From the NCBI GenBank assembly GCA_963971425.1, contig OZ020521.1:3288501-3352500 (forward strand): 64,000 nucleotides of DNA, read 5' to 3'. Source of the stretch: Bryoerythrophyllum caledonicum (lineage: Eukaryota > Streptophyta > Bryopsida > Pottiales > Pottiaceae). The notes beneath the pieces were generated by a model that saw only the letters and a program-made list of their open reading frames with translations, searched no databases and was not told where the DNA came from. Made by a program: the position numbers and the translations under genes. This document shows positions 7,200 to 40,197 of this stretch, piece by piece (position 1 is the first letter of the stretch; each line of letters starts with the position of its first letter).

Positions 7200-7853
7200 G
7201 TCAATACATCAGTTTGGTGGATCTCCAAGTCCAAGGCCACTTCAAGTGAAAAAATGCATCAAGTGATGGTGAATGTGGCAATAGGAGCAAACATTTCAAG
7301 GAAGTCCACTCCTGCTACTTGAGAGTATCCTTTGGCTACCAATCTTGCATAGCCGACTCCCACTTGCTTGCAATCTCTAAATGCATAGCCTCATGTATAT
7401 TCAAAGGGTCCTCCAATGATGTCACATTGGCACGCTCCACCTCATGTCAAGGCGAAATGTGGCTCCTCCACCATTCACTAGGCAAGCGGCGCTCCCTTCT
7501 TGAAAACCACGGTTCTTGTAAGCTTCGAAAATCTTCATCGCTAGGAAAAACGCTACACCATCTTCTTTGGCATCAAATTGCTCATCTTTCTTATTATTAC
7601 CATCACAATCATCCAAGGATAGTGGTTTGGAAGATTTGCCCACCAAAACCAATCTAGGGACCTTACTACTCTTACTAAGAGTCATCTTTAAACCATCACC
7701 AAGAATAATACTATCCTCAACAAACAATATATCACGACTCTTTGTTGATGATTGTACCATGTTGGCCGCATCCGCCTCATACACTTTGGTAAAGGTCACT
7801 TGGTACAATTTGCCTTCACGAGGTGCTAGCCCAAAAATATCTCTGTTTGGTGC
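7200..7853 (-). pseudogene. copia-2 polyprotein remnant with internal deletion
   Basis: Reading right to left on the minus strand: APREGKLYQVTFTKV is the end of Gag-pre-integrase, followed almost at once by SRDILFVEDS, the motif that normally comes after integrase, so the integrase core has been deleted. Next come EDPLNIHEAMHLEIASKWESAM (the copia E.P.....A.....W..AM block) and then RLVAKGYSQVAGVDFLEMFA, the start of reverse transcriptase. The reverse transcriptase is itself cut short before the LTR. This is a deletion derivative that could not move on its own. Confidence 0.8.
7849..7853. other. Target-site duplication GGTGC (left)
   Basis: GGTGC directly precedes the gypsy LTR and recurs directly after the right LTR at 27313-27317. 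Five bases is the usual size for Ty3/gypsy integrases. Confidence 0.93.
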
Positions 7854-9841
7854 TGTAGAGCCAAAATGACAAAAATAGATTTTTTCCAAAAATTAAGTGT
7901 AAAAAGGGTTGTAGATATATGGAGAATTAGATAATTAATGATTAAGTTTACACTAAGTAGTTAATTAATTGAAAAGTACCTATTCATATCCAAGAATATG
8001 GAAATAATGGGAAAAGGGTTGAACTCACACCCTTCGGGTAGAGTGTACCTTTTCATGAATGGATATGAAGAGATGTGAAGATTTAGTGGAATTAATCTTA
8101 ATGGTTAATACTACTAGGGAAAACCTCTTTCCAAGAGTTGTACCTCTTGGATGTTGAGTAGAATGACTAGCTTGAATTTTTAGCATTCTTGGCCATTACC
8201 ATAGAAATTCCTTGGAGGAAGATTGGAGTGAGCCCTAGCTTTAGGTGAAAAAGTTAGTTGATGACTCTTAATGTTGTAAGAGTATTTAATTTTATATATG
8301 AATATATAATTGTTATTGAATTTGCATATGTAGAGTCTTGTGACTTGAGTTATATGTATAATTGCAATATTATGTGAACTTCATTGCATAAATTTGACAA
8401 TTGTGTGTTGTAAATGCAAGTGCATGCATTAGGTATTAATTGTGGATAAAATTCTTATGCATGAATGCATTGTATATTTATTCTTCATGGAATAAGTTAG
8501 GGAAATACCCTAACTACTAAGGTCGTGTGTGTGACCTTGTGTGTGTGTTGGAGCAATAATTATAATTGTGAAGATTAATGGAGATAATGTGAAATTAAGT
8601 GACTTAGTGCATAAGGTGTGTGATGCATAAGTACTTAAGAAGATCTCAAGTGTGAGTGAGCATAACTTGAGTATCATAAGAATAAGAGTGGAGTTCTTAT
8701 TTATGTTAATGCAATTTATGCAATAAACATCAAGAGTGACATACCTTGATGCATGGCAAGAGTGTCATATTATGCATACAAAAAATTGGCATTAAGTCTA
8801 TCCTTAATAGAAGGGATTCTCTAAGGTAGACTAAGTTGTGAGTATTTAAGAATCTATCATAAGAGAGAAAATAAAGAACAAATCCCAAAGAAAGACTTAA
8901 GAAGAAAACATAGAAACTTAAGAATCTTAAGTCCAAGTTTGGATACATAAGCTTATGAGGAGTGAGACCTTAAGTACCATGAGACCCTTAAGTTTAAGGG
9001 CTTGGACTTAAAGGTTCGTATGAGTGAGAATACGGGACAATATTGGCATTCAGTGAGATGCACTCCCGGTTCTGGAAGTCTTAAAGACAGAAACTTAAGA
9101 ACACTGTAGGACTGAATTGGTCTAGACAGTGCAGGTTCTTAAAAATCAGTCCTAAGTAAGAAAAGAAGTGCTTAAGAACTCAAGGACAGAAACTGTGTTC
9201 TTAAGAACATGGACCCGACTAAGAGAGAAGCCTTAAGTAAAATTCAGACATCTTAAAGACTAAGTGGTACGAGTAAGTGTGGAACACCGTGGTCTTTAAG
9301 GGATAATTGTGGGTAAGAGAACTTAAGTGGAGACTTAAGAGGTGAACCCTTTAAGACTTAAGTTAACTTGTGTATGGGATTTTTGAGACTAACCATTGTC
9401 TTAAGAACGTGATCACGTGGACCGAGTGGACGGACGTGAAAAGTGGAGCGTTTTTGTATGAGGTAAGAATTTGAATTCTTTAAGATTGTAATTAAAGAAC
9501 CAATGCAATGAGACTTAATGGAAACTTCCATTAGCCCAGTGTGGCAAGTGTTTAGGGATTAGTGGCTTAAGCACAATCTTAAAAGGACTAATGTTCCGTC
9601 TTAAGGCACGAGAGATCCTTGGGGTTTAGACTTTGTTTGTGGATCCCTTAAGAGTAATGCTAACAGCCCTAATTTCCTAGAAATAGATAGATAACCTTAA
9701 GAATTAACCAAAAAGATAGCTTTAACGACACAATTAATCTCCAATTACTTAAAACTAGGCGTATGATCATCCCCGTAACGAATCCTATGAGGTGTGGGTA
9801 CACTTGGGTGTTTTATTAGAGTGGTGAAAAATCACTCCACA
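7854..9841 (+). repeat. gypsy 5' LTR
   Basis: Begins TGTAGAGCC and ends ACTCCACA (TG...CA). By eye it differs from 25325-27312 only at two substitutions near its start (about 7888 and 7943) and has exactly the same length. It contains 18 copies of CTTAAG by my count. AATAAA motifs near 8722 and 8875 could serve as polyadenylation signals, but I cannot place the U3/R/U5 borders. Confidence 0.96.
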
Positions 9842-9847
9842 TTTTTT

Positions 9848-9865
9848 TGGCGACCATGCTGGGGA
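9848..9865 (+). other. gypsy primer-binding site
   Basis: TGGCGACCATGCTGGGGA starts six T residues after the LTR end. It has the TGG start and the length of a tRNA 3'-end complement. The TGGCGAC...GCTGGGGA form resembles primer sites I associate with tRNA-Arg in Ogre-like plant elements. The tRNA identity is inferred, not confirmed. Confidence 0.75.
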
Positions 9866-10037
9866 TGGTACCGTCAAGTTTTTTTAAGTAATTTTAATTA
9901 GGAAAGCTGTCAAACTTAAGTCAATTACTTAAGTAAACTATCATAGCATTTAGTTTTATGTGAAGTTATAAATTTTGAAAAACATTATTTAAAAAATTAA
10001 GAAAATTAAAAAATTAAAAAATTAAAATTTGTAAAGA

Positions 10038-10556
10038 GTGAAGACATGTTGTTACAACATGTCTACTTTTCCATGGGAGGTTTCTGAAGAAACTTTGAGT
10101 GACTTCTTTAGTGGTCCATATTTGTTTAGCGCCCTTTATCGTGTCTATAGAGGTGCGTATTACGGACAAGGATTTCAATTTTATGGGGCTCACCTAAAAA
10201 TTGATCAATCATTTAATGAAAAATTTGAACAACTACCCTTAGAAATTAAACAATTAATTTTAAACAAAGTGTGGAATAAGGGTGAGGGTTTTAATGAAGT
10301 AATTGTCAAGAAAAAGACTTTATATTTAAAATATCAACTACACTACCTTTTTGCTCAATATGGTAGATTGAAACTTCAAACACAACCATTAATTTCTAGA
10401 GGCTTAGGGGCTTGGAACGGATACAAGTTTAATCAAGAAACTTATATCTTTGTTTATAGTAAACAAAACTTAGAGAGCAAAGTATTCTTTCCCGACTTCT
10501 TATCTAAAGATCCAAAAGTTCCCGTGAGTGTAGCCTTTGATTTATTATGTATTTAA
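10038..10556 (+). CDS. gypsy leader ORF a (172 aa, unknown)
   Basis: First ORF after the primer site, 172 codons, AT-rich like its neighbours. I do not recognise a family. An in-frame Met also occurs at residue 8. It is rich in aromatic residues, and its end (VPVSVAFDLLCI) echoes the ends of leader ORFs c and d, where a hydrophobic helix finishes in LC. Otherwise it shows no clear similarity to them. Its stop is only three bases upstream of the ATG of leader ORF b. Being uninterrupted in an element with broken gag-pol suggests it is either conserved or simply short enough to have escaped damage. Confidence 0.55.
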   Translation: MKTCCYNMSTFPWEVSEETLSDFFSGPYLFSALYRVYRGAYYGQGFQFYGAHLKIDQSFNEKFEQLPLEIKQLILNKVWNKGEGFNEVIVKKKTLYLKYQLHYLFAQYGRLKLQTQPLISRGLGAWNGYKFNQETYIFVYSKQNLESKVFFPDFLSKDPKVPVSVAFDLLCI

Positions 10557-10559
10557 AAA

Positions 10560-10868
10560 ATGAGTTCCTCAAATGAAACTTTTAAGGAACAACGGACAAG
10601 GTTGAAAAGATTGTTAATAATTTATTCTAAAATTCAATACAATGAAGGGAAATTATTTAGACTTTTGGGGACAGAAATAGAACGTATTAAAGACAACAAC
10701 CAACATTCCATTAATAGAAAAAAAATCATCAATACTTTCTTACAAAAATTCAATTACCCAAGAGAATTAATAATAGAACCATTGTCACGAGAATTTAAGA
10801 TAGAACCATTTACCCTGACTGATTGGCGTCACTATTGTTACCTCAATGGAGCAAATGAGAAAAATTGA
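10560..10868 (+). CDS. gypsy leader ORF b (102 aa, paralogue of c and d)
   Basis: Starts three bases after the stop of leader ORF a and overlaps the start of leader ORF c by 23 nt. The protein is helical and basic. An LLIIYSKIQYNEGKLFRLLG segment followed by TEIERIK lines up with the same region of leader ORFs c and d, which have LYARIAYYE...ETEIERLI and ICAYHRIGPYDGEY...ESEIDLLI. Then comes a diverged FNYPRELI matching the YP motif of the others. I know no family for it. Tight stop-start coupling suggests expression by reinitiation or leaky scanning from one RNA. Confidence 0.55.
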   Translation: MSSSNETFKEQRTRLKRLLIIYSKIQYNEGKLFRLLGTEIERIKDNNQHSINRKKIINTFLQKFNYPRELIIEPLSREFKIEPFTLTDWRHYCYLNGANEKN

Positions 10869-11127
10869 ACGCCTAAATTCTAAAAGTGAAAGAAATAAGT
10901 CCCTTAAATTCTTATATGCAAGAATAGCTTATTATGAAACTTTCATTAGTCAGGATAGGAAATATTTGGATATAGTAGAAACTGAAATAGAGAGATTGAT
11001 TGAACAAGCAAAAGAATGGTTGAGTGAACTTGAGATAGGGGAATTGTTGGCATATTTAGGTTACCCCATAAATAAAGAGAAGGAATTAAACCTATCCATG
11101 GAGGCTCTCCACCTTTGTTCAAGTTAA
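10846..11127 (+). CDS. gypsy leader ORF c (93 aa, paralogue of b and d)
   Basis: Ninety-three codons in a different frame from leader ORF b, overlapping its last 23 nt. It contains ETEIERLIEQAKEWLSELEIG, then LLAYLGYP, then a C-terminal helix ending ALHLC. This order (a Y.....YL...E.EI..LI..A.EWL.E.E.G segment, then a YP turn, then A..LC) is repeated in leader ORF d, so the two are clearly related. No catalytic or metal-binding motif is visible. A small helical oligomerising or nucleic-acid-binding protein is possible but is only a guess. Confidence 0.6.
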   Translation: MEQMRKIERLNSKSERNKSLKFLYARIAYYETFISQDRKYLDIVETEIERLIEQAKEWLSELEIGELLAYLGYPINKEKELNLSMEALHLCSS

Positions 11128-11175
11128 AATTCTTTATAATTCCTTGAAATACCATACAAGTACCCCAATGACAAA

Positions 11176-11460
11176 ATGAACCGAGAGAGTGATCCTTTAT
11201 GTACCCCAGTTAATGGTGGGAAAATAATTAGGAGATTAATCACTACAATTTGTGCGTATCACCGTATAGGACCTTATGATGGGGAATATTTGAAAATAGC
11301 CGAAAGTGAGATAGACCTTTTAATAGGTATAGCCAGTGAATGGTTGGGAGAAAATGAAATGGGAGCCTTATTAACTATGTATAAGTATCCACGAAACATT
11401 GCATGGGAAGTTGAGGGAATGAAGCTTACGGAGGAAGCAATTTATCTTTGTTTAAATTAA
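11176..11460 (+). CDS. gypsy leader ORF d (94 aa, paralogue of b and c)
   Basis: Ninety-four codons, 48 nt after leader ORF c and 58 nt before gag. It shares with leader ORF c the pattern EYLKIAESEIDLLIGIASEWL, ENEMGALL, a K-YP turn, and a C-terminal helix ending AIYLC. About one residue in three looks shared. The three related ORFs most likely arose by tandem duplication inside the retroelement. No known family recognised. Confidence 0.6.
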   Translation: MNRESDPLCTPVNGGKIIRRLITTICAYHRIGPYDGEYLKIAESEIDLLIGIASEWLGENEMGALLTMYKYPRNIAWEVEGMKLTEEAIYLCLN

Positions 11461-11518
11461 AAATTTAAAAATTAAGTTCAGAATAAGGATAAAAATAAAA
11501 AACCTATGGGGATTACTA

Positions 11519-14500
11519 ATGTCAGGAAAAGACAAAGAGAAAAGAGAGAAACAAAAAGTCGAGAGAGCTCAACGTTATAAGAAAAGGGTAGAGAAGAAAC
11601 AACCAACTATAGTGTTAGGAGTACATAATCCTACCTTTAACACTGTTACAACTCTTTCTCCCTTCAAACTAGATGAGGAAATAGAAATAGCCTTAGAAAA
11701 GGCATTGAGACAAACAAAAAGGGAGACAACATATAAAACACTACCCGATCCTCCAAATTCTCCTCAGTCAGACACAAAGACACCACAATTTACCCCAGAA
11801 GAGTTAGTATTTGCAGCCTTAAAAAATCCTAGGAAGAAATATATAGGAAAAAGAAAAGATAAAAAATATACGAGTCACTCTTGTTGTTCTAGTAGCCCGG
11901 AAGAAGTAAATTGGGAGACCCAAAGTGAGAAGGTTTGGTCTAAATCCTTAGAAAAGGAAGGATCCTCAGAAGAGGAAGAAGTGGATGAAAAACCTAACAT
12001 TCATGATCAACAACTTGATGAGTTAGAACGATTGTTTAGAACCCCCATACCCCATTCTTTAATAAATCGTACATATGAAGTAGGTAACTCCTCAGACCAA
12101 ACAAACTTTGAAACTCCCTATCCAAGTCCTTTTGCCCAAGAATTTGAGTCAATACCAATATTTACTCATAGTGAAGCAAAAGAATCTATTGACCATTTTC
12201 TGAATGATAGACCATTGGAAAATGAAGAAGAAAAGCATAAGTTTCGTAAGGAGTTATTAGAAGCTTTTAGTCAAATTCTTAGACCTACCACTTTAAACTT
12301 TGACATACAAGAAGAGATTGACCAAATTAGTGTAGAAGGAGCGGAATTTAAGTATAATCCTATTAAAGAGGAAAAGTTAGATGTAGGTGAGCAAAGTGAG
12401 CCTAAAGAAGGTGAAAGTTTATTTAATAGTGAAAGTAAAGAAGAAGAGCACTCAGAACCACCAGTGCGAGAAGCGAGTCCAGCTGGACTCCCCTCACATA
12501 CTTCCGGGAGGACTTCTCCTTTTGACTCTTCTTCTGCTAGTTCTACCTCTTGCAGGTCCTCATTATCCTCACCACCTTCAACCCCTCCTACTCCAGACGA
12601 CCCTTTTGTTAATCCCCTTGCTATGGCGCATCATAGGATGCTTAATATAGCTCCATTTTCCATATTCTATGGTGACTTGGGAGAAGATCCAGATTCCTAC
12701 TTGGAAAGATTTCAAGTAGTAGCAATAGCTAATAATTTAGCAATTGATAAGTACATCACTAGTTTTCCTGGTAATTTACTAGGGGAAGCTCAGAGGTGGT
12801 ATGCGGCATTAGATCCTCAACCAATAAACTGGGATGCTTTAAAAGAAGCATTTTTGACCAGGTTCAGACCCCAGTCTTATCATAATACTTTGCAGGATCA
12901 GTTACAAAGTTTTCAAATGTATCCCACAGAAACTATAGCCGGATATTATACTCGGCTTAGAAACTTATTGAATAGATGGCGAGATCATAATATGCCAGAA
13001 GCATGGATCACTAATACCTTTACCAGAGGTTTATTAGATCCTATGTGTATATACCAGGTTAAACTTTCCAACCCGGCAAATTTAAATGCAGCATATGAAG
13101 CTGCTAGAAATTGGGAAGCTGGTATGCAGCGATCTAATATGTTGTTACAAACAAAAAGAATTCCATATCAGGATCCATATCTTTTACCTGTATCTACTCA
13201 ATATGGGATGGATAATAGTGGAAGAGATTATTATCCTAGGTCAATATCCAGTCAACCCCAATTAACTATACAAGGACCACCTCATCCTAGAGAGCAACAA
13301 CTTGCGTTGATGCTTCCTAGTCATGAGGAAAATGAGCTACAAGCCTTACAAAAACAATTTAGAGAATTGTCAGTCCAAGTTAATGAAGGTAGAAATAAGC
13401 GACCTAAGGCTACTAATCAACGAACTAATATTTGGTGTAGTAATTCTAAGGGACATGGACACTTGGCCACCGAGTGTAAATATCCAATAGGAGGAACACC
13501 TAAGCTTAAATGTGCTTATTGCGGTGCTAAGGGCCATGATATAACTACTTGTAGAAATATCAAGGAAGTAAAGGCCCTAGTACAAGAGCAACCTTCTCAA
13601 AATAATAACAAAAAACAACCTTATAGAATTACATCCAAACAACCTTTTACAAGACCAGGAAACAATAATAACCATCCGAGAGGAAATAATGGTTATAGTC
13701 AACACCAAGTTTGGAGAGGACCTAACCAAGATAGAAACAAAGAAGTAGTATGTTATAGATGTGGAGAGCCAGGTCATTATTCTAGGGAATGCACAAATGC
13801 ACGTCAACAAGTTGGTTTTAATCCCTTATGTGGAAGATGCGGGCAAACGGGGCATGTTTCTACCTTTTGCACAGCCATAATTACTGAGTTTCCTAATGTT
13901 AGGAAACAAGTTCAAATTCAAGAAGTAGAGTCTTCTAATACTAGAAATGTAAACTATATGGCAATTGATACACCTCAAGATGTCTTTATCACGAGATCAC
14001 AAGCCAAGAAGGCCCTTGAAAAAGAACCCGTTAGTAGTTCAGAGAGTGATTATAGCAAAGTAAAACTTAATCCTGTGCTTGCTAGAGATATGCCAACTAT
14101 ACTAAAAAGACCAGAAATTCTTAAACCATCACCACAAATAATAGAAATAACAAATAGTGATTCTCAGGAAAATCCTACTCAAGTACCTATAACACCTTCT
14201 TCGCCAGAAAAAATTGTACCTATAATTCCAAATGTGGAAAAACCAAGTACTTCCATGAAACCGTTGGAACAACCTACTTTTTATAAGCCTTCAAAAAAGA
14301 TAATGAAAGAATCATCTATGTCTTTAAAAAAGAGAAAACATAATAGAATTATGAGATTAGCAGTGGATATGCATCCATATGATATTCTCACAGATTTAGA
14401 TAGATTACAACCTCAAATTTCTTTGAGACAATTACTTGCATTGTCACCTTATTGTAAGAATGAGTTAACCTCTTCTCTAATTAGAAAGAGAGCAAAAATA

Positions 14501-14746
14501 CAAGAGGAGGACAATGTAAAAAAAACTAAACAAAAAATAAATAAGGAAACAAGTAAATCTCAACCCGAAATTGTGAACGTTCATGATATCTCTCTAGATC
14601 CAGGTGCACCTACAGTCGATGTAATTATAGATGGAACTTTAATTGATGGAGCCCAAATTGATAGTGGGAGTAGTGTCAACCTTATGAGTGTTGATACTAT
14701 GGAAGAGTTAGGCATAACTACCATAGCACCTACTCCTATTATTTAA
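11519..14746 (+). CDS. gag: gypsy Gag with start of aspartic protease (1,075 aa)
   Basis: Structural protein of the particle. Residues 1-370 are charged and low-complexity, with acidic Ser/Glu blocks and a Pro/Ser-rich stretch near 325-365. The retrotransposon Gag domain lies at about 378-570 (EAQRWYAALDP, then WDALKEAFLTRFRP). Four CCHC-like zinc knuckles follow from about residue 639. The first (CSNSKGHGHLATEC) has Ser in place of its second Cys. The others (CAYCGAKGHDITTC, CYRCGEPGHYSREC, CGRCGQTGHVSTFC) are intact. The retroviral-type protease begins near the C-terminus with its catalytic motif in QIDSGSSVNLMS. The frame then ends at a TAA (14744-14746) inside the protease. The remainder continues in the -1 frame from about 14747, so a one-base loss in the T run at about 14742-14744 is the simplest explanation. 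Confidence 0.9.
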   Translation: MSGKDKEKREKQKVERAQRYKKRVEKKQPTIVLGVHNPTFNTVTTLSPFKLDEEIEIALEKALRQTKRETTYKTLPDPPNSPQSDTKTPQFTPEELVFAALKNPRKKYIGKRKDKKYTSHSCCSSSPEEVNWETQSEKVWSKSLEKEGSSEEEEVDEKPNIHDQQLDELERLFRTPIPHSLINRTYEVGNSSDQTNFETPYPSPFAQEFESIPIFTHSEAKESIDHFLNDRPLENEEEKHKFRKELLEAFSQILRPTTLNFDIQEEIDQISVEGAEFKYNPIKEEKLDVGEQSEPKEGESLFNSESKEEEHSEPPVREASPAGLPSHTSGRTSPFDSSSASSTSCRSSLSSPPSTPPTPDDPFVNPLAMAHHRMLNIAPFSIFYGDLGEDPDSYLERFQVVAIANNLAIDKYITSFPGNLLGEAQRWYAALDPQPINWDALKEAFLTRFRPQSYHNTLQDQLQSFQMYPTETIAGYYTRLRNLLNRWRDHNMPEAWITNTFTRGLLDPMCIYQVKLSNPANLNAAYEAARNWEAGMQRSNMLLQTKRIPYQDPYLLPVSTQYGMDNSGRDYYPRSISSQPQLTIQGPPHPREQQLALMLPSHEENELQALQKQFRELSVQVNEGRNKRPKATNQRTNIWCSNSKGHGHLATECKYPIGGTPKLKCAYCGAKGHDITTCRNIKEVKALVQEQPSQNNNKKQPYRITSKQPFTRPGNNNNHPRGNNGYSQHQVWRGPNQDRNKEVVCYRCGEPGHYSRECTNARQQVGFNPLCGRCGQTGHVSTFCTAIITEFPNVRKQVQIQEVESSNTRNVNYMAIDTPQDVFITRSQAKKALEKEPVSSSESDYSKVKLNPVLARDMPTILKRPEILKPSPQIIEITNSDSQENPTQVPITPSSPEKIVPIIPNVEKPSTSMKPLEQPTFYKPSKKIMKESSMSLKKRKHNRIMRLAVDMHPYDILTDLDRLQPQISLRQLLALSPYCKNELTSSLIRKRAKIQEEDNVKKTKQKINKETSKSQPEIVNVHDISLDPGAPTVDVIIDGTLIDGAQIDSGSSVNLMSVDTMEELGITTIAPTPII

Positions 14747-14748
14747 GA

Positions 14749-17700
14749 ATGGCCGATCAAAGTAGAGTCAAACCTTTGGGAAAATTGATACAATTAAATA
14801 CAATAATTGGTGGAATTGATTATAAAATTGACTATATTGTCTTTAAGGTGAGTGAGTCTATTTCTACATATCCTATTCTCCTTGGCAGACCTTGGTTGTC
14901 ATTAGCTAAAGCCAAGGACGATTGGGGCAAGGGAACTTTGACAATTGGGAAGGGCAAAAGTAAAATTATTCTTCCCATGTTTCCTGCAAACTATCATGGT
15001 GAGACTCAAGATGATGCTTCAGATTGGACTACTGATCCCAACTCAGAATCTGAGCCTGAAGATACTAATGTTATCCAGGACATGCCTACGTTTAAAGGCT
15101 TAGGTCCTGGAGAGTATTTTGTCCCTCCCAGTCAAGTTGATGACTCGGATGCAGCTATTGAAGCATGGCAAAATGCTCCTATTTTTAACATTACTACTGA
15201 GGGAGAGTCAGATAAAGGAATTCCTTATGTGTCAGACTCGGATGAGTTGCTAGGTGATAAGAAAACACCTAATGTTCGACCTTTAGTAAAAAATACTATC
15301 GAAATAAATTTAGACACTACGGAAGATCCTAAGCCTATTAAAATATATGATGAATTAAGTTCTAAAGAATGTGAAGAATGGTTGGAATTCTTTAAGAAGG
15401 AGAAAGACGCCTTTGCTTGGACTTATAAAGACTTGAAAGGCATACCTCCTGATGGTTGTCAACATCGAATTATCCTAGAAGCGGATGCTAAACCTATTAG
15501 GCAAAGGCAATATAGGATGAACCCAAAGTATTCTCTAATGGTTAAAGAGGAAATTGATAAATTACTGGAGTGTAATTTCATTTATCCCGTGCCATTTAGT
15601 GAGTGGGTGTCACCTATTGTCATAGTACCTAAATAGAATGGTAAGATCCGTATTTGTCAGGATTTTCGACAGTTGAATAAAGCCACTAAGAAAGATTTCT
15701 TTCCTTTACCATTTTCTGATGCAGTCCTAGATGGTGTAGCGGGTCATGAATGTTATTCCTTCCTTGATGGATTCTCGGGTTATAATCAAGTGCAGATTGC
15801 CCCAGAAGATAAACCATTGACCACTTTCACTACGGACTGGGGGACTTTTGCATATAATGTCATGCCATTTGGATTGTGCAATGCTCCGGCAACATTCCAA
15901 AGAGTTATGACTCAAGCCTTCACAAAATATCTTAGAAAATTTATGGAGATATTTTTAGATGATTTTTGTGTGTTTGGTTCTAAGAAAGATCATGCACAAA
16001 ATTTAAAGAAATGTTTTGATCAATGTAGAAAGTATGGCATCTCCATAAATGCTGCTAAGTCTGAGTTTGCTACTGTATGTGGTAAATTATTAGGTCATGT
16101 TGTTTCAAAAGAGGGAATATCGGTTGACCCAGACAAAGTAGACATTATTATTAAAATGGAAATTCCCAAACATCTCACGGGACTAAAAGGCTTTCTAGGT
16201 GCAACAGGTTATTATAGAAGATTTATTTATAAGTTTGCTTTTATAGCAGCACCTTTGAATGTCTTAACAAAACAAACTTTACTACCGGGGGTATGGACAG
16301 ATGATTGCACTAAAGCTTTTAACAAGTTAAAACGTCGTCTTAGTAAAGCACCTGTTCTAATTCCCCCAGATTGGACAAAACCCTTTGAAGTATATGTTGA
16401 TGCTTCTAATGTGGCAATTGGAAGTGTGTTAAGCCAGAAAGATTCCAAAGGTCATGATAGACCAATTTACTTTGCAAGTAGACAGTTGAGTGCCCCAGAA
16501 AGGAACTATTCTGTAACTGAAAGAGAAGGTCTTGGCATGATTTTCTCTGTTCAAAAATATAGACATTATTTATTGGGATATAAATTCACTTTTCATATTG
16601 ATCATGATGCCTTGAAGTATATGATCAATAAGCCTCAATTAAGTGGTCGAATTGCAAGGTGGGTTTTGCTATTACAAGAGTTTGATTTTACCATTAATGT
16701 CAGACCGGGGAAAATACATCAAAATGCGGATTTTTTATCAAGACTTAGTGAAACTATAAATCCACAGTCCATAGATGATAACTTTCCAGATGCACACATA
16801 TTTTCTGTTAAAGAGGGTGTGGAGGTACTTGATGTAATTCCTAAAGAATATGCCGACATCATCTACTATTTAACTAAGGCTACTTTTCCTACTGAATACA
16901 CTAGCAAAGATAAAACTAAACTAGTCCATCAATCTTTGCCTTACACCATGATTAGTGGTGTTCTCTATAAGCGAGGCAAAGATGATGTACTTCGACGATG
17001 TGTAAATCCTAGTGAAGTATCTATGATTTTAGTAGGATGTCATGATGATGTCTGCGGAGGGCATTTTGCGGGTTGGGCTACTGCTCAAAAAGCATTGCGA
17101 GCAGGCTATTGGTGGCCCACACTTTTTGCCGATGCCACTAATTATGTTAAAAAATGTGATCCTTGTCAGCGAGTTGGTAAACCGACAGCCACTAAGGCTA
17201 TGCCATTAACACCAATTTTAGCACAAATTCCTTTTGAAAAATGGGGAATTGACTTTGTAGGTCCTATTAAACCACCTAGTCGTGAGGGTCAAAAACGCTA
17301 TATCTTGGTTGCAACCGAATATGTGACTAAGTGGGTAGAGGCCCTTGCCACTAGAACTGATGACGCAGACACTGTGGCAAAATTCATTTATGAACATATC
17401 ATCACTAGATTTGGGTGTCCGAAAGAAATTGTAAGTGATAGAGGGACTCATTTCATCAATGATACTATTGAGAAAATGTTGCAAAAGTAATTTATTAAGC
17501 ACCGTAAGTCGTCACCCTATCACCCTAGAGCTAATGGACAAACTGAGAAGTCTAATGGTATTCTCTGCAAGATTATCACTAAGACATTACAAGGCAATGC
17601 ATCTAATTGGGATTATGAGTTGAATAATGCATTATGGGCATATAGATGTACAATAAAAACTACAACTAAAGCAACCCCTTTCCAATTAGTATATGGATTG

Positions 17701-18096
17701 GAAGCTATGCTCCCGATAGAAGTGGCATTACCTTCTCTACGCGTGGCAATTTCTAAAAGATTAGATGATGAACAATCTCTAAGAGAAAGATTAGATAATC
17801 TAGAACGTCTAGATGAAATTAGAGGTCAAGCCTACATGAATATGGAAGCTATAAAAAAACAAAGGAAAACTTATTATGATAGTAAATTACAACCAAAAAC
17901 TCTAAAAGAAAATGATTTAGTCTTACTCTATGACAGTCGATTCCAGAAATTTCCAGGAAAATTTAAAATGAGATGGTTTGGACCATACAAAATACTTAAA
18001 TCTTATCCTAATGGTTCTATGGAATTACAAGATTTTGCAGGTAATGTGCATGCAACACGCTATAATGGCTACAGGCTCAAAAAGTACGTCACTTGA
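14749..18096 (+). pseudogene. pol: gypsy Pol: protease end, RT, RNase H, integrase, with two in-frame stops
   Basis: A single frame of 1,115 codons with a TAG at 15634-15636 in the reverse transcriptase and a TAA at 17488-17490 in the integrase. Domains in order: protease C-terminus (ILLGRPWLS); RT with PIRQRQYRMNP, the stop just after SPIVIVPK, then ICQDFRQLNK, MPFGLCNAPATFQR and the catalytic FLDDF box; RNase H with DASNVAIGSVLSQ and TEREGLG; integrase with an H/C zinc region ending CDPCQR, the DDE core (WGIDFVGP, IVSDRGTHF, and the third acid in NGQTEK), and a C-terminal GPYKI...G..ELQD segment. No chromodomain is present. Both stops can be read as C-to-T changes of Gln codons, but other origins are equally possible for the RT one (Lys to stop) and the integrase one. 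Confidence 0.92.
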
Positions 18097-19620
18097 GGGC
18101 AAGTTACCTTTTAAAAGAGGGGGGCTACACCCCTACTTAAAGGAAATTTTAAGAAAATCTTAAGAAAGAATTTTTAAGTAGTCCGGAACGACACTAAACT
18201 ACCAAAGGGAAAGTGTAAAATTTTGTGTTTTAAGTCATAGTTAATTTATGATCATTCATAAAAAATATTCACAAAAAACTTTCTTGAGAGAAACCTTGTC
18301 ATAAGGTATTATTGAAAAAAATAAAATTCAAAAATAAAAATTCTTAAGAGCTAAATCATTTTGCATAAAGGAACAGTACTTAAGAAGTCATCTCAAGTTA
18401 AGTCACAGAATTAAGATCATAAGTGTAATGTCATGCCAGTTGTCTTAAGAACTTAAGTGCTCTTAAAGACAGAGTTGTCTTAAAGAACTTAAGCTGTCTT
18501 AAAACACTCAAGAGACGTCAGATCTGCAGTCGCCTTAAGAACTCAAAATAGTCTTAAAGACACAAGTGACTTAAGAACTTGAGTTGTCTTATCAAATTTG
18601 AGAAGATGTCAGAACTCCAGAACTTGAGTAGACACCTTAAGACAGTAAGTCTAGGGTTGTCCCTGAAGTTCATCTTAAAAAGTAAAGTTGGGAAACAACA
18701 ATAAACTTAAGCAAGGAGATGCCTTAAGACAGAAATAAGCCGAAGCAAATTATGGAAAATGGAAAAACTTAAGAAAATAAAAATGATGATTAAGTTGGTA
18801 GGAAATCTGTGAGAAGCGACCTTGTCATAAAGTGGAGAAATCTCATCATGTTGAAAGATCAAATTAAAGTGCCATGGAAGAGACAAAAGTGGACACTTCA
18901 CTCGAGGGAACAATAATCAATCACGTAAAAAAGATCATTGCCATGACTTGAAAAACGTGATGATAAGGACGAGTGGGGGCGAGACTTAAAACCAAGTGGC
19001 AAACTTGATGAGCCGTTAAGAAAACGAGCTGCCAAACTTGGCTATGGCTCATCAGAGAGAATTCACAAGTGCATTGTTCAGTTGCCGAAGCAGAGTCGAG
19101 AGGTTAGTTTGCATTGTTGAGAGTAAGAGTGTATCGTGAAGAATTGTTGCAAAGCTGTGAGTTTTGTGAGACTCTGCGTCGGGGAAGCGAAGTGTCATCA
19201 AGAGCGAAGGCAGAGGTCGTCACACGTTCTGGTGGTAAGTTCGTCGTTTAAGTCATGCTGAATGTGAGTTCACAGAATTGTTGGATTATGCCATGTCGTT
19301 GTGAATAAGGTTGCTTAAGACAACAGAATTCAACTGATCTTCCTTGCTAAGGTATGAGATTAATGGAATAAAATTTACTAAGAGTAGATAACTATCTACG
19401 AGAGTAAAATCAAAGAGTTTGTTAAAGAAAATCAAGAAACGGAATAACCGTTGTAACCACCTTGCATGTAATCTTAAGACATAAGTCTGCACAGATGATA
19501 GGGAATTCTATGAGTGTAGATGCATGTCTTAAGAGTGTTCGTAGCGTGAAGAAGATTGCAAAAACGAAATAGACATTGTAGGGGAAAGAGCTTTGCTTTG
19601 TTGTTAAAGACAGGTGCAAA
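18097..19620 (+). other. gypsy spacer between pol and accessory ORF
   Basis: No coding sequence recognised. From about 18150 to 19030 the sequence is packed with CTTAAG and near-variants (CTTAAA, TTTAAG), as in the LTRs. From about 19000 the base composition turns GC-richer towards the accessory ORF. The stretch may hold the promoter or splice acceptor that expresses the downstream ORF, but I see no decisive signal. Confidence 0.6.
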
Positions 19621-22600
19621 ATGGTGAATCCAAATTCACAGAGTGGCGTTGGTTGTAAGAGAACAGCAGATAGAGAAATCAAGATGAGCCAGAAACGGAA
19701 AACGAAGAAGGATTTCGAGATCGATCCTTCTCCGCTGAGGGAGTTGCCAAAGAAGGTGTATGAGGGCAACCGCAAGAATTTGGAGAAGGCAGGTCTCCTG
19801 CAATTCATCGAGCAGCAATGGCCGGAGGCGGATCTACCGCGAGTGCTGGCTTTCATGCTGAACTCCAAGCGAGGCGCACAAGACGAATTTTTGATCAACG
19901 GTGAAGTGGTTCGCTTCGACGTCGAGGTCGTCCAGCAGCATTGCCCAAGCTTGCCAAAGACGGGACCTACGCTGGTGGGATTGCCTTTGCTAACCAAGAC
20001 TGAGCTCAGTTGGGTGTTCGAGAAGCCAGACGACGCCAAGGTGGGACGGGGATATTCGATCAGGAAGGCCAAGGCTTCGTGGAAGGAATGGCTGAAATTT
20101 ATCAACCTTCGACTCTTGATGGCTTTCGATGGAACGGAGGTATTATCACCCAGCGCATTGGCTGCAGCGTACAAGAGCTGGAATGGAGAGCGACTCAATT
20201 GGTCCAAGATCATGTACGCGCATCTCCGACTGGAGCTAGCAGGGAAGAATACCCGCCACAACATCTTCTTTCATGGGACCACGTACTTCTCAGCAATCTG
20301 TCCCCCACTGAGGAAGAGCTTGACTGGAGGAGCACAGGAGGTGGATGAAGAATCAGGGAGGAGTTCCAAGAAGAAGAGATTGCGCAAGATGGTGGAGGAA
20401 CCGGAGGAAGAAGAGGAACCGGAAGAGGCTTCTGAAGAAGAAGAAGACGTAGGAGATGAAGACATGACCAGCCCAGCAAGGGAGGACGCAGAAGAGGAGA
20501 TGCCAGGGTCACCTGAAGCCCCTGCACCAGCGAAAGACAAGGGGAAGAAACAATTGGCGGAAGTGCAGAAGAAGAAGGTGAAGCCCCCGATCTCCACTGG
20601 AGGTGTCTTGAGTATCACCTCAGGACAGGAACCACGTCCACCAGCAGCAGCGAAGCTGTCCAAGACACCATCCAAGCAGATTGTTCCGTACGCTGCTCCC
20701 GAGGTTGCCACAATGGAGGACCCTGAAGATGAAGCTCCTCTCAAGCGAACAGAGAAGAGATCGCAGGGGGCAGATAGCACCAAACAGGGTGAGGTTTGGG
20801 AGTTGAACAAGGCGAATCTCGAGCTGATGGTGATCCAGAAGGATGATCTCGTAGCTCAATACCAAGCCACCAACAAGGACATCTTGTTGGCCAAAGATCA
20901 GATGCAGAAGGACTTCCAACGCGAGAAGCTCCGGCTAGAGAAGGCGCTCTTGGAAGCAGAGCGAGCTAAAGAATTGCTGGACAGGGAGCGAGGTGAGCTG
21001 CGAGGGAAGTTGGCCCAAACAACTGAAGAAGTTCAGCGCTGGGAGACCTTGTGCAACGAACAAACCACTAAGGCACAGCGATGCGAGGAGTTGCAGAAGA
21101 AGCTGAGCCACATGGAGCAGGAGTACCATCGCCTCAAGGCGGAGTCGGAGAAGGAAAATTCAGCTCCAACTGGAGACAAGGAAGCATAGGTGCGAGATTG
21201 GCACACGCTGCAAGAAGAGCTCCGGCAAGCTTCCGGGAGTGCTGCCCACTGGAAGGATCTCCACACTGCGAAGGAACGACAAGTTGAAGAATACTTGCTC
21301 GAGATTGAGAGTCTTAAGACTCAACACCAGCTGGTGAAGGAGCAGTATCAGGCTGAGAAGAATCTGGCGAAGGAGTTGGCGACATCGCTAGCACAACAGA
21401 AGAGAGAGGTGCAGGCGAGCAGGGAAGCGTCGACCGTAGCTACGCCCGACTCTTCACAGGTAGCAGAGTGGGAAGAGAAAGTACGAGATGTCACCGAAGC
21501 TAATGCCCGGTTGACTGCACAGACGACCACAGATAGAGGAGTGAAGAGCAAACTCCAAGAGGCAATTTGGCGTCAGGACTTACATAGTCCGCCAACCTTT
21601 GCACTCTTCAGAGCTTACGAGTTGCAAAGGAATGCTTGTTTCAACATGATGTGCTTGAGCGCTGGAGACAAGCTGAGCCGGGCGGAATTCCAAAACCTGT
21701 GGACTGCAGCGGCGAACTTCGCCAACATGCAGAATTTGATCTGCGAAATGATCGTGAGGTAGGACCTTCAACTGGAGGACGCCAGACAGTTGTTGGTGCC
21801 GATTGGTGATATTGGAGCCAGAGTGCTACTATATTATTGGCACTTGGAGGGGCAGCTGCAGATGTGGAGGCAGTATGATCAACCAGATGTAGCTCAACAA
21901 ATGGTAGTCATTCCTGAGGTTGATCTTAAGACCATTCCCCTCTCCTCGGACTACCTGGGAGAATGGAAGAACCAGATGGAGAAGCTGACGAAGCTATTAC
22001 AAAATGAGCAGAGCTTTGTGGGATGCATGACTCAAGTCCAGGAGCGCGAGGACTTGGCTCAGCGAGGTGAGATCACCATGGGGCAGTATCTCTACGCCAA
22101 GGTCCGAGCTCACCACCGACTTAAGCGTGCGATCGAGGGAGCAAAGAAGAAAACGGTGGATGTGGCAGATGCGGTTCAGATGGCCACTTTCATGTCACCC
22201 CCTCCAGATTATAAACACACGATCTGGGGAGGCTTGCCACTACCAGTGACCGGATCGTTGAACAAGCAACGATTTCTCGGAGAATACGAGAATCTGTTTA
22301 ACAGCGAGGAGGAGGTGCCATTTCCCTCATGGCAAGCCATAGATTGGCTGTTGGAGGACTTTGGCTTGTCACCGCAGGTCTGGAGACAGTGGGATCAACT
22401 ATATCCCAAGGTATCCTAGACGTGGTCAACGGTGCCACCAGCAGCAATCACGATGAGCTACCACTAGTGTCCCTTGAAGGGATATCGGCGTTACAAGTGG
22501 GTGCCCTGGAGTAAGCTCGACACAGTGCCTTACAACTGGCCACAGATTCCAGGGAATTTTTCTTCTCCCCAGGAATGCAGTGATTCCTATCGAGCCTTTT

Positions 22601-23040
22601 TTGAGATTCACCGAAGACACACGGACCCTGTGTGTTTTCGAGCTGCAGTATTTTGCAACATCCTATCTCATATGTGTATGCGATACAAGTGCGTGGTGAA
22701 TGTCAACAGATTTGACGAGACCAAGCCCGAGTTTCACCTATGGACGAAGATGCAACAGATGCCAAGTCGCCATATGAGGACTTTGGAATGTATGGTAATT
22801 ACCAACTTCCTCCACGGTGCGAGCTCGGTCTTTGCCTTGGAGAATTCCAGCAAGCGTCAAGAGCAGCTGGTTGCCTGGTTGAGTTACCAGAAGGCACACG
22901 AGACGTATCTCTTCAAGCATGATGAGGATGTTCGTCGTAATGTGGAGATAGCTGAGCTGCAGCTGATTCTCCAGGAGTGTGAGTTCAAGGATGCGTACAA
23001 GCACAAGCGCCCTCGACTCAAAGCCAGACCAAGATCTTGA
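19621..23040 (+). pseudogene. gypsy accessory ORF after pol, interrupted by four TAG codons
   Basis: One frame of 1,140 codons stays open except for stops at 21187, 21760, 22417 and 22465, all TAG. Part 1 (522 aa) has a basic N-terminus and a globular region at about 35-240. An acidic/Pro-rich linker at about 255-330 is followed by a long coiled coil from about 395 (heptad-like runs rich in Glu, Lys, Leu and Gln). Part 2 continues the coiled coil. Parts 3 and 4 look globular, with many Trp and Cys, and end in a basic tail. The N-terminal region resembles the plant mobile-domain or putative-transposon proteins carried by large plant gypsy elements. That is inference from overall character, not from a diagnostic motif. 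It is visibly GC-richer than gag-pol. Each stop fits a mutated CAG (Gln) codon. Confidence 0.75.
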
Positions 23041-25311
23041 GTAGACATGAGGTTTTTTAGGAGAAGCTCTGTGCAGACAATGTAAATATTATGATGGAAT
23101 TTTGTGATTGCAGCTAGAGTTTAGAAGTTTGCAGCTTCGAGAACTTAGGATATGGCTTATTGTAGAAGCCAGGATAATGAGCTGATAGCTGATTTTGAAA
23201 GATTGAACAAAAACCTGTAAAGCTGCAATCTTCTGGAAAAATGAATGACATTAGCTGCATGATACGATGTCATAAGATTATGAACACGAAGAAATGGAGT
23301 CAACAACTAATTAAGAGGAGAAAGTGTCTGGGAATGAAGAATTCTAGGAATGTTCTATGAAAAATTTTTAAAAAAAAATATACAAGTGGAAGTCAGTTGA
23401 AAGGAGGATCGGTGACTTGGGAGTGTACACACAAAGAAGGAAATATTAAGCAGTAAGTTATGAAAAAAAAAAAAAAAAACCATGTTGAACTGCCTGTAAC
23501 TACAGGAGTCAGCACTCTAGTCAAGCGTGGTGGGATAAGCCACGTGTGATGGATACATACCCGGCACTAGCACCCGGAGGTTGCCACGACAATATGTACC
23601 CGCGGCACACGTTAACCGACCACCAAGGCCTGCTAGATGAAGGTATCAGGTCTGTTAGCCTATATATCGTGAGCCTCAGGAGCCTTACCAAACGATATGG
23701 AACAAATGCTGATCCTAGTATGGAGAAAAATAGAAACTTCTATCACTGTTTCCATATCTGGTGAAATGCACAACACATTTTCACAAATTTGCAGTATGAG
23801 GAATAACAAGGATCAAAGATGTATGAAGAACTTAGGAAAGAATGGAAAAAGAAGATTGATTTTCGGAGTCTGTGACTTATAAAAAACCTGTCAATACAGA
23901 CAGAGCTCTGTCTGTACGTGGGTAAGAACATGTTTGGGAAGAAACGAACCAGGTGAATGAACAGATAATTTTCCTAATTAAAAAACCAGTACGTAGTAAG
24001 TTTATACTTTAAAGTCCAACTCCTTAAGTTCAAAATTTTAGAAAAGATCCCTTTAAGTACAAAATTGTAAGAGCCCTTAAAAACACTGTTTTGAGTGAGA
24101 TCAGTTTTTCCTGTGGCTTCAAAGAAGTGAGAGTTTAAGTTATAACCTTGAGCAGACTAGAACCTTAAGAATTAGATAAGCAAGAGAAATTTAGTTCCTT
24201 AAGGAAAAGAACAAATAGAATAGATCCTTATTTTCCTTAAGTAAGTCAGTTCTTTAAAAACTTGCTCTAAGTCAGTTCCCTTAAGAACCAAAGTCAGTTA
24301 CACTTTGGATAAAACAAAAATCTTAAGACTTAGATGTAGTGTGAGAGTTTTTAAGAACATATGGAGGGATAGTGTCTTAATGAAAGAGCAAATTCAATTG
24401 AATTTGTAAAAAAAAATAAAAATTAAAAAAATAAAAAAATAATCTTAAGGCATATAGATGAAAGGAAAAAATAAGAGGGAGAGAACATGATAATTCTAAT
24501 GAGAGAGTATCATGAAAGGAAAAAATAAGAGGGAGAGAACATGATAATTCTAATGAGAGAGTATCATGAAAGGGAAAAATAAGTAAGAACATGATAATAT
24601 TGAGAGATAAAGCAAAAAGGCTATGGAAAACAATGTGAGTCATGTAGATGAGACGATTAGTGGTGAAGTAATACACACACTACTTGAATTGTATGATAGG
24701 GTAGCTCACACAAGTTAGAAAAAATAGAAATAGAAGAGTATGGAAAGAAAATTAGTAATCTAGGATTAGTAATTTGTTGTGAAGATGCACTACTAATTTA
24801 CTAATCAAGAGATGTGAGGACTAATGAGTGCTAATTTTCTAAAAAAATGAAAAAATACATGAAGAAAAAATGATGAATGAAGTAAAAATAAAATTAAAAA
24901 AAATAAAGAATGAGTGCAAGTGAAGAATAAAGGAAGATATGGAAGAAAAAATAAATTGAAAAGAAAAATTTGAAAAGCAATGAAAATTTAAAATGAAGAT
25001 TTAGAAGAAAATGAAAAAATTCAAAGCTAAAATGAAAAATTATGGAAATCTACAAATGGAAGACTTAACTAAAATAGTTAAGTTAAAAAGAGGAACTTGA
25101 AGCCAAGTATGTATGAGACATACTCATTAAAGAGAAGAACAATGGAAAGCAAATAAAGAAAATAAATAATTCTTAGAGAATAAAGACAAGTAAGAAGAAA
25201 TCTATATGGAGCTTAAAGAGCCTACAAGAAAATGATAGAAAGCAAGATGGAGTGTGAAAGATCAAGTTCAAGGACAAAGGTCGTTGAAGTCGACGAGGAC
25301 GTCTCCAAGCT
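23041..25311 (+). other. gypsy 3' spacer before the polypurine tract
   Basis: No coding sequence recognised. It includes an A-run at about 23463-23480 and a CTTAAG-rich block at about 24000-24440. The 24458-24610 tandem repeat follows, and then a strongly purine-rich, A-rich plus strand from about 24700 to 25311. Confidence 0.6.
24458..24610 (+). repeat. 54-bp tandem repeat in gypsy 3' spacer
   Basis: Two adjacent identical-looking 54-bp units (24458-24511 and 24512-24565), each starting ATGAAAGGAAAAAATAAGAG, followed by a third, degenerate partial unit. The unit is purine-rich on the plus strand. Confidence 0.85.
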
Positions 25312-25324
25312 AAGAGGAGGGCTA
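25312..25324 (+). other. gypsy polypurine tract
   Basis: AAGAGGAGGGCTA ends directly at the TG of the 3' LTR. This is the expected place and composition for the plus-strand primer. Confidence 0.85.
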
Positions 25325-27312
25325 TGTAGAGCCAAAATGACAAAAATAGATTTTTTCCGAAAATTAAGTGTAAAAAGGGTTGTAGATATATGGAGAATTA
25401 GATAATTAATGATTTAGTTTACACTAAGTAGTTAATTAATTGAAAAGTACCTATTCATATCCAAGAATATGGAAATAATGGGAAAAGGGTTGAACTCACA
25501 CCCTTCGGGTAGAGTGTACCTTTTCATGAATGGATATGAAGAGATGTGAAGATTTAGTGGAATTAATCTTAATGGTTAATACTACTAGGGAAAACCTCTT
25601 TCCAAGAGTTGTACCTCTTGGATGTTGAGTAGAATGACTAGCTTGAATTTTTAGCATTCTTGGCCATTACCATAGAAATTCCTTGGAGGAAGATTGGAGT
25701 GAGCCCTAGCTTTAGGTGAAAAAGTTAGTTGATGACTCTTAATGTTGTAAGAGTATTTAATTTTATATATGAATATATAATTGTTATTGAATTTGCATAT
25801 GTAGAGTCTTGTGACTTGAGTTATATGTATAATTGCAATATTATGTGAACTTCATTGCATAAATTTGACAATTGTGTGTTGTAAATGCAAGTGCATGCAT
25901 TAGGTATTAATTGTGGATAAAATTCTTATGCATGAATGCATTGTATATTTATTCTTCATGGAATAAGTTAGGGAAATACCCTAACTACTAAGGTCGTGTG
26001 TGTGACCTTGTGTGTGTGTTGGAGCAATAATTATAATTGTGAAGATTAATGGAGATAATGTGAAATTAAGTGACTTAGTGCATAAGGTGTGTGATGCATA
26101 AGTACTTAAGAAGATCTCAAGTGTGAGTGAGCATAACTTGAGTATCATAAGAATAAGAGTGGAGTTCTTATTTATGTTAATGCAATTTATGCAATAAACA
26201 TCAAGAGTGACATACCTTGATGCATGGCAAGAGTGTCATATTATGCATACAAAAAATTGGCATTAAGTCTATCCTTAATAGAAGGGATTCTCTAAGGTAG
26301 ACTAAGTTGTGAGTATTTAAGAATCTATCATAAGAGAGAAAATAAAGAACAAATCCCAAAGAAAGACTTAAGAAGAAAACATAGAAACTTAAGAATCTTA
26401 AGTCCAAGTTTGGATACATAAGCTTATGAGGAGTGAGACCTTAAGTACCATGAGACCCTTAAGTTTAAGGGCTTGGACTTAAAGGTTCGTATGAGTGAGA
26501 ATACGGGACAATATTGGCATTCAGTGAGATGCACTCCCGGTTCTGGAAGTCTTAAAGACAGAAACTTAAGAACACTGTAGGACTGAATTGGTCTAGACAG
26601 TGCAGGTTCTTAAAAATCAGTCCTAAGTAAGAAAAGAAGTGCTTAAGAACTCAAGGACAGAAACTGTGTTCTTAAGAACATGGACCCGACTAAGAGAGAA
26701 GCCTTAAGTAAAATTCAGACATCTTAAAGACTAAGTGGTACGAGTAAGTGTGGAACACCGTGGTCTTTAAGGGATAATTGTGGGTAAGAGAACTTAAGTG
26801 GAGACTTAAGAGGTGAACCCTTTAAGACTTAAGTTAACTTGTGTATGGGATTTTTGAGACTAACCATTGTCTTAAGAACGTGATCACGTGGACCGAGTGG
26901 ACGGACGTGAAAAGTGGAGCGTTTTTGTATGAGGTAAGAATTTGAATTCTTTAAGATTGTAATTAAAGAACCAATGCAATGAGACTTAATGGAAACTTCC
27001 ATTAGCCCAGTGTGGCAAGTGTTTAGGGATTAGTGGCTTAAGCACAATCTTAAAAGGACTAATGTTCCGTCTTAAGGCACGAGAGATCCTTGGGGTTTAG
27101 ACTTTGTTTGTGGATCCCTTAAGAGTAATGCTAACAGCCCTAATTTCCTAGAAATAGATAGATAACCTTAAGAATTAACCAAAAAGATAGCTTTAACGAC
27201 ACAATTAATCTCCAATTACTTAAAACTAGGCGTATGATCATCCCCGTAACGAATCCTATGAGGTGTGGGTACACTTGGGTGTTTTATTAGAGTGGTGAAA
27301 AATCACTCCACA
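25325..27312 (+). repeat. gypsy 3' LTR
   Basis: 1,988 bp, constant offset of 17,471 from the 5' LTR with no indel. Two substitutions were seen (about 25359 and 25414). The rest is identical as far as I could compare by eye, including all 18 CTTAAG sites. Confidence 0.96.
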
Positions 27313-27317
27313 GGTGC

Positions 27318-38194: not shown

Positions 38195-38591
38195 ATGATT
38201 AACAGGAATTTGGTGGATGGAGCCATTATTTTGACATGGGAAGACCAAGAAATCTTGATGTCAGAAGATAGATGGCTAAGTACTTCAATAATGGATGTTG
38301 CGTTTAAAATATTATATGATGATATTTTAGTACATAGAGGATTACATCCTCATGAAACTCGCTTTGACGGCAACTTGAAGAAGCCAAGACCACCATTGCT
38401 AAAACCATGTCTCCAATTTTTTCATCACAAAGAGTATATGCATTGGATGTTAATATATTTTAATCCCACTAGCGATCTCTTTCATCAATGTCATGTATAT
38501 GACACTTTGGGTAGACACGATAATGATTTAAAATTTTGAAAAGATTTGGTATTCCTGAAAATATAGAATATAAGTACATGCATGTACAGTA
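38195..38591 (+). pseudogene. Ulp1/C48-like SUMO protease, N-terminal part
   Basis: From the ATG at 38195 the reading gives DRWLSTSIMDVAFKILYDDIL, like the W-L-x-D-x-I-I segment that opens the Ulp1 catalytic domain. It continues to EYMHWMLIYFNPTSD and HVYDTLGRHD, which hold the catalytic His (HW) and Asp (YD) of a C48 peptidase. The frame breaks at 38537 and continues in another frame as RFGIPENIEYKYMHVQ up to the Tc1-like insertion. The catalytic Cys lies beyond the insertion at 41372-41566. In its original form the enzyme would cleave SUMO or a SUMO-like protein. Its role in a transposon is unknown. Confidence 0.75.
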
Positions 38592-39174: not shown

Positions 39175-39288
39175 CTCCATTAGCGTCAATCACTGCTAGT
39201 AACCTAGAGGGCATAGAATGACATAGTTGAAGGAGCTTTGTACCATTGACTAACTTCTACTCTCTTTCAAGAACTACCTTCAACACAT

Positions 39289-40167: not shown

Positions 40168-40197
40168 AAACTTATAGAGTGCGTGATGCTAGCTACA

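Follow-up and report, generated by a model that had tools for sequence, protein, structure and literature searches.

The moss Bryoerythrophyllum caledonicum carries, in a 64,000-nucleotide stretch of contig OZ020521.1 (positions 3,288,501 to 3,352,500; hereafter the window), a Ty3/gypsy long terminal repeat (LTR) retrotransposon in which four small open reading frames (ORFs), here called a, b, c and d, lie between the primer binding site (PBS) and gag. These leader ORFs are a 5' accessory gene block of a plant Ty3/gypsy family, and the proteins they encode are kept by selection. The LTRs, target site duplication, PBS, gag and the order reverse transcriptase (RT)-RNase H-integrase identify the window element as Ty3/gypsy, and the location between primer site and gag proposed in the initial annotation is borne out by the LTRs, the PBS and a Pfam gag match. 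That annotation listed ORFs of 172, 102, 93 and 94 codons. All four are present, but the first figure counts ORF a from a GTG at 10038; from its first ATG at 10059 this ORF has 165 codons, and 26 of the 36 database relatives of its product are 159-174 amino acids long. The spacings reported there, a 3-nt gap between a and b, a 23-nt overlap of b with c and 48 nt between c and d, agree with the coordinates. A fourth ORF of at least 93 codons appeared in none of 2000 Markov-shuffled leaders.

Paralogy and purifying selection

Proteins b, c and d are one protein family, in which b is a deep branch and c and d are clear paralogs; protein a is unrelated to it. The local alignment score of c with d is 120, against 26 +/- 5 in shuffles, and was reached by 0 of 2000 shuffles, while those of b with c (51) and b with d (44) were reached by 5 and 9 of 2000. 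Profile comparison with relatives included gave P 1.5e-15 for c against d and P 1.3e-6 (probability 91%) for b against single-copy c/d proteins. Reversed-profile controls for the latter comparison gave P 0.24, 0.40, 0.63 and 0.82, and seven control comparisons in all (reversed profiles or a) ranged from 0.06 to 0.82. The suggestion of a duplicated small-protein family between primer site and gag, and of three-way paralogy within it, thus survives the profile match on which it had been staked. The motif E-x-E-I-x-x-L-I, offered as common to all three proteins, proved too loose, as b reads EIERIKD.

All four frames show purifying selection when genomic copies are compared, a comparison proposed with the initial annotation. 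The ratio of nonsynonymous to synonymous substitution (dN/dS) was computed on ORFs judged intact only (39 a, 42 b, 61 c and 64 d), and its pairwise median at dS 0.25-0.6 is 0.15 for a, 0.18 for b, 0.24 for c and 0.18 for d. Pairwise dN/dS drops with divergence, as expected of a constrained master lineage accompanied by drifting dead copies. In disjoint pairs (dS >=0.1), used so that no lineage counts twice, pN/pS is 0.22, 0.27, 0.42 and 0.29 for a to d, and dN is below dS in every pair (18/18, 20/20, 28/28 and 32/32). Informative sites are distributed unequally over the three codon positions in a (P 6e-14), b (P 0.012) and d (P 0.0004). For the N-terminal part of Gag, where 10 of 21 copies were used, dN/dS medians are 0.38-0.57 by dS class (16 pairs). 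The leader ORFs are therefore more constrained than the Gag N-terminal part, and a is the most constrained of the four.

Copies, subfamilies and the host element

The assembly from which the window comes (437 Mb in 894 contigs) contains at least 150 scored matches to c (465 candidates) and at least 150 to d (489 candidates). We compared 81 leaders, the window's and 80 others chosen among the c matches to span a c identity of 73-100%, a choice by which c is over-represented as intact. All four ORFs are intact in 20 of the 81, the remainder having lost at least one in various ways. In window-type copies with both neighbours intact, a and b are separated by 3 nt in 21 of 25 cases, by 4 nt in three and by 6 nt in one, and all 35 copies with intact b and c share the 23-nt overlap. 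Of 72 pol matches, 65 have a c or d match on their gag side at a distance of 4.2-5.7 kb and in the same orientation; seven lack one. Among 21 longer rows, identity to the window is 0.90-0.95 in the ORFs, 0.76 in the non-coding leader and 0.74 in the Gag N-terminal part. The last value is low because two Gag types accompany related leaders: Gag begins with MSDR or alike in one set and with MSGK or alike in the other (L093-L098 and L105-L107 against L089-L092, L099-L104 and L108). Two diverged Gag types behind related leaders suggest that the leader block may have been exchanged between elements. Separately, three equal-score c matches near 59541, 77117 and 94693 on contig C8 of assembly G000, at a step of 17,576 bases, look like a tandem array of elements with common LTRs.

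Searches with distant a proteins uncovered five further arrangements, and 20 more loci were read and grouped by eye. Subfamily I, the window's, has the order a-b-c-d-gag with the c/d doublet. Subfamily II (L109, L110, L112, L113) reads a-b-c/d-gag; subfamily III reads a-a-b-c/d(-gag), the second a being intact in L111, broken in L120 and L126 and not seen as an ORF in L119. Subfamily IV (L114-L116, L122) is a-b-c/d-gag with a 4-nt b-c/d overlap, subfamily V (L118 only; L127 is incomplete) is a-b-gag without c/d, and subfamily VI (L123, L125) is a-b-c/d-gag with a strongly diverged c/d. The a-b-c/d-gag arrangement is the common core, its order constant in all six subfamilies wherever readable, and gag, wherever it was reached in other subfamilies, has a similar MS beginning behind the block. 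Subfamily representatives, the window's included, share 47-82% of their amino acids in a, 34-66% in b and 24-48% in c/d (d for the window). Junctions and profiles were compared without seven of the 20 outside loci (L117, L121, L124, L127 and L128, which lack at least one ORF, and L110 and L126). Outside the window subfamily each of the 11 a-b junctions measured (L119 and L120 are not among them) has a 3-nt gap, and the b-c/d spacing is -32, -26, -4 or +4 nt. The tandem c/d doublet was met in the window's subfamily only. The initial picture of a duplicated family was thus right as far as it went; it missed the non-paralogous a, the restriction of the doublet to one subfamily, and the other arrangements (a-b-c/d, a-b, a duplicated).

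The host element is a young, nearly fresh insertion of a recently active family, its LTRs differing at 2 of 1988 sites. The stretch 9848-9866, which holds the PBS, has a mean identity to the window of 0.98, against 0.76 for 9867-10058 (21 rows, window included). The frame of gag is open; pol of the window copy changes frame at 14746/14749 and has stop codons at 15634 and 17488, and Pfam places RT, RNase H and integrase in 15673-17490. In the genome 13 of 72 pol matches are listed with no stop within the match and an open frame of more than 2000 codons; three further pol rows combine equally long frames with a stop within the match, which leaves some doubt about how the listing is to be read. 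Gag-pol seems to be a single frame in other copies. Because other copies have an open pol frame, the pol breaks are decay of the window copy and not a family trait, and that the leader frames have stayed intact beside a damaged pol therefore does not speak for special retention. The contrast of four intact ORFs with a broken gag-pol, drawn in the initial annotation, accordingly fails as evidence, given also the near-identical LTRs and the minority of leaders with four intact ORFs. The internal stops of the pol and post-integrase frames are TAG at 15634, 21187, 21760, 22417 and 22465 and TAA at 17488, so that TAG makes up five of six. So many stops despite two LTR differences suggest either a template that was already broken or assembly errors.

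Table 1. Features of the window element and its leader (window positions)
Feature	Positions	Strand	Remarks
Target site duplication GGTGC	left 7849..7853, right 27313-27317		5 bp, from flanks
5' LTR	7854..9841	+	ends TGTAGAG...CTCCACA; 99.9% identity to 25325-27312
Primer binding site TGGCGACCATGCTGGGGA	9848..9865	+	mean identity 0.98 over 9848-9866
Palindrome/hairpin at ORF a start	10043..10063	+	out-of-frame ATG 10046; 13-codon upstream ORF overlapping the a start
ORF a	10059..10556	+	165 codons from first ATG
ORF b	10560..10868	+	102 codons; basic in window copy, pI 9.7; distant c/d paralog
ORF c	10846..11127	+	93 codons; overlaps b
ORF d	11176..11460	+	94 codons; c paralog
gag with zinc knuckles and protease start	11519..14746	+	Pfam Retrotrans_gag, zf-CCHC; frame open
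Protease remainder, RT, RNase H, integrase	14749..18096	+	interrupted in window copy at 15634, 17488
Long post-integrase frame	19582..23040	+	four TAG interruptions in window copy
3' LTR	25325..27312	+	pairs with 5' LTR

Other features of the window include, at 38589-41372, a pair of inverted repeats (about 580 bp, 97% identity) that enclose a Tc1/mariner-like transposase ORF (39289-40167, minus strand, named by its look). By look only, a Harbinger-like transposase ORF lies at 35363-36328 and a LINE-like ORF at 45831-46499. The minus-strand segment 51401-51934 resembles, by a motif, part of a plant villin gene.

Relatives and known systems

Protein a has 36 database relatives at E 0.001, with 45-85% identity. 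Two profile searches for the b/c/d family returned 15 proteins each, 20 of them distinct, with b-like proteins the commonest. One b-like protein is located in a bacterial metagenome-assembled genome (Segetibacter), presumably as plant contamination. A Pfam search at E 0.1 returned nothing for any of the 37 a-family members; the Pfam matches of the b/c/d family all lie below cut-off, and PDB sequences gave no hit at E 1 to either family. The AlphaFold model of a is mixed alpha/beta (mean predicted local distance difference test score, pLDDT, 68.6) and that of c is helical (66.1); fold comparison of the two models found no match.

The lineage of the element was approached through its domains. 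An archaeal-type RNase H (RVT_3-type) was found neither in the three pol pieces (E 0.01), nor in gag and the four post-integrase ORFs (E 1), nor in the 37 a-family proteins (E 0.1), the scan leaving out 15637-15672, 17491-17619, 18097-19620 and 23041-25324; so far this argues against Tat. The four ORF pieces of the post-integrase frame have no Pfam match above cut-off, and no match to the Athila ORF-1 domain PF03078 at E 1, a domain detected in just 16% of Athila elements (PMC6317226). A chromodomain, the mark of chromoviruses, was sought after the integrase; 17620-18093 has no Pfam match at E 0.01.

Among the closest known elements, Ogre (Ty3/gypsy, Tat) is described as carrying, between LTR and gag, an extra 550-codon ORF whose function is unknown (PMC1142308), one to two additional ORFs in its internal region (PMC6431247) and a PBS antisense to tRNA-Arg (PMC9289625). 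The window element resembles Ogre in its extra coding between LTR and gag and its long LTRs. It differs in the number and size of these ORFs (three or four in its family, 93-165 codons each, paralogs among them), in showing no second RNase H by Pfam in the scanned pieces, and in that gag-pol is seemingly one frame in other copies. For rice Retrosat2, RIRE3 and RIRE8 an ORF0 whose function is unknown is reported ahead of gag-pol (PMC3485330). As described, this ORF0 is single and evolves faster than ORF1, whereas the window family has several such ORFs, which are under stronger constraint than the N-terminal part of Gag. The extra ORFs surveyed by Neumann et al. 2019 (PMC6317226) are the same kind of feature; the leader ORFs fall outside the survey as described there because of its minimum of 250 codons. 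In our search of titles and abstract openings, no plant LTR element was described as having, ahead of gag, a block of several small ORFs that are conserved and include paralogs; an earlier notice is possible.

Badnaviruses and rice tungro bacilliform virus (RTBV) are pararetroviruses without LTRs. They share with the window family tandem small ORFs, with short gaps or overlaps, ahead of a polyprotein, as described in PMC5902531. In RTBV, ORFs I and II contain no internal AUGs, and badnaviruses mostly follow this pattern, whereas in the window family in-frame Met is only rare.

Two other readings of the ORFs were weighed. On the first, the ORFs are passive leftovers, open merely through the youth of the copies, as the two LTR differences of the window copy would allow. 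Provided that the compared copies are representative, this is extremely unlikely in view of purifying selection in the family, of ORFs that stay intact although subfamilies share 24-82% of their amino acids, and of database relatives that match a in length and are 45-85% identical to it; when neutral drift of a was simulated to 50% and 46% identity, fractions of 0.000 and 0.003 of 400 runs kept the frame open. On the second, ORF a is a displaced archaeal-type RNase H, since some moss and clubmoss Tat elements are described as carrying an RNase H ORF in the same position, upstream of gag (PMC10508981). We consider this identity very improbable: at the thresholds given above the a family matches neither Pfam nor PDB sequences, the model of a matches no fold, and the element's own RNase H matches Pfam across the whole profile.

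Translation and possible role of the block

The leader block is probably translated polycistronically, and the arrangement of the ORFs suggests how. Full-length element RNA would serve as template for all leader ORFs. A hairpin and a short upstream ORF at the a start would divert part of the ribosomes past a, and ribosomes terminating at the 3-nt a-b gap or at the short b-c/d overlap would restart on the next ORF; gag would be translated last, or from a spliced RNA. Polycistronic pararetrovirus RNAs are likewise described as having tandem ORFs with short gaps and overlaps (PMC5902531). The exact 21-nt palindrome is present in 47 of 81 leaders and the upstream ATG in 65, and eight of the other leaders have a different inverted repeat at the same place (list read by eye). 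An out-of-frame ATG stands 13-23 nt 5' of the a start in the tested loci of subfamilies I, II, III, IV and VI. When pairing of the a AUG was compared with upstream-shuffled controls (values are the fraction of controls reaching it), it exceeded them in I and III (0.000, 0.040); in subfamily II the fold at the a start is stable (0.050) although AUG pairing is unsupported.

Two other routes of expression have to be weighed against ribosome sorting with reinitiation. In strict leaky scanning, as in badnaviruses and tungroviruses, ribosomes would pass through AUG-free ORFs. The tandem ORFs with short gaps or overlaps would suit it, as would the near absence of in-frame Met from a and b, both in intact window-type copies (a 2/39, b 1/42) and in database relatives (a 15 of 5629 residues, b 0 of 851). 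However, d is rich in Met, any-frame ATGs in a number 6 against 6.4 in shuffles, and 5 to 7 any-frame ATGs separate the a and b starts in each of the 20 all-intact leaders, so that the upstream ORFs are not AUG-free in the badnavirus sense. With 33 ATGs from the LTR end to the gag ATG (a-d starts included), and a gag start context that is poor by the usual rule, the plain form of leaky scanning down to gag is quite unlikely; the initial annotation had named leaky scanning as one of two possible routes.

The same 33 ATGs would favour separately spliced RNAs, as in retroviruses and cauliflower mosaic virus, running from an LTR donor GAG/GTAAGA at 9463 (window 9460-9468) to acceptors before b, c, d or gag. 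This donor is the top one in 7854-11530 by matrix score, and GAGGTAA is exact in 18 of 21 aligned rows among variable neighbours, as counted by eye. There is, however, no conserved acceptor just 5' of gag, where TTCAG is altered in other copies; for b, c and d, acceptor scores come from the window alone. Since splicing would also leave the fixed stop-start spacings unexplained, we regard it as a rather unlikely source of the leader proteins. From the hairpin and the pattern of Met codons and ATGs, we infer that ribosome sorting and reinitiation are to be preferred over pure leaky scanning.

Several observations weigh against a conserved block read by sorting and reinitiation. Pairing of the a AUG is doubtful in subfamilies IV (0.105, 0.065) and V (0.100, 0.695) and not above controls in II (0.960, 0.310) or VI (0.655), and the conservation of the 5' arm of the hairpin is matched by 6.5% of non-coding 9-mers (interval shifted one base). 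Met is present in b of II and IV (up to two) and in a of VI (two), all-frame ATGs, averaging 6 between the a and b starts, are not depleted, and the count before gag is high, as noted above. Reinitiation after long ORFs in pararetroviruses is described as needing a viral helper (PMC5902531). L127, outside the junction count, has a 2-nt a-b gap, and the codon-position test does not reject equal thirds for c (P 0.14). Both fold models are of only middling confidence, and function is not indicated by any homology (Pfam, PDB or fold comparisons). Finally, b is acidic in subfamilies V and VI and c/d is basic in VI, and there is therefore no fixed pairing of a basic b with an acidic c/d.

As to function, the proteins would act early on the element RNA or particle. 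With modest confidence, a role in handling or protecting the element RNA (as silencing suppressors or Gag helpers) appears likeliest because of the constraint, the early position and the duplication. The whole explanation, a conserved 5' accessory block read polycistronically by ribosome sorting and reinitiation and encoding RNA-handling or RNA-protecting proteins, we judge somewhat likelier to be right than wrong. One may speculate further, and tentatively, that the block is a virus-like multi-protein 5' accessory operon with coupled termination-reinitiation, one of its proteins being a TAV-like reinitiation helper or silencing blocker, and that its members were gained, lost and duplicated while their order and the a-b junction stayed fixed alongside diverged Gag types.

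The extra ORFs of plant retrotransposons have mostly been portrayed as solitary, strongly diverged and functionally doubtful (PMC6317226). In the family described here, selection maintains several small proteins that have no known relatives, in a fixed order, across at least 150 copies and six subfamilies in one genome, and a cut-off of 250 codons overlooks such genes. The leader block offers a test case for true accessory genes in plant retrotransposons, and for pararetrovirus-like translation of LTR retrotransposon RNA. That a row of small proteins has been kept by selection suggests that it helps the element in its host.
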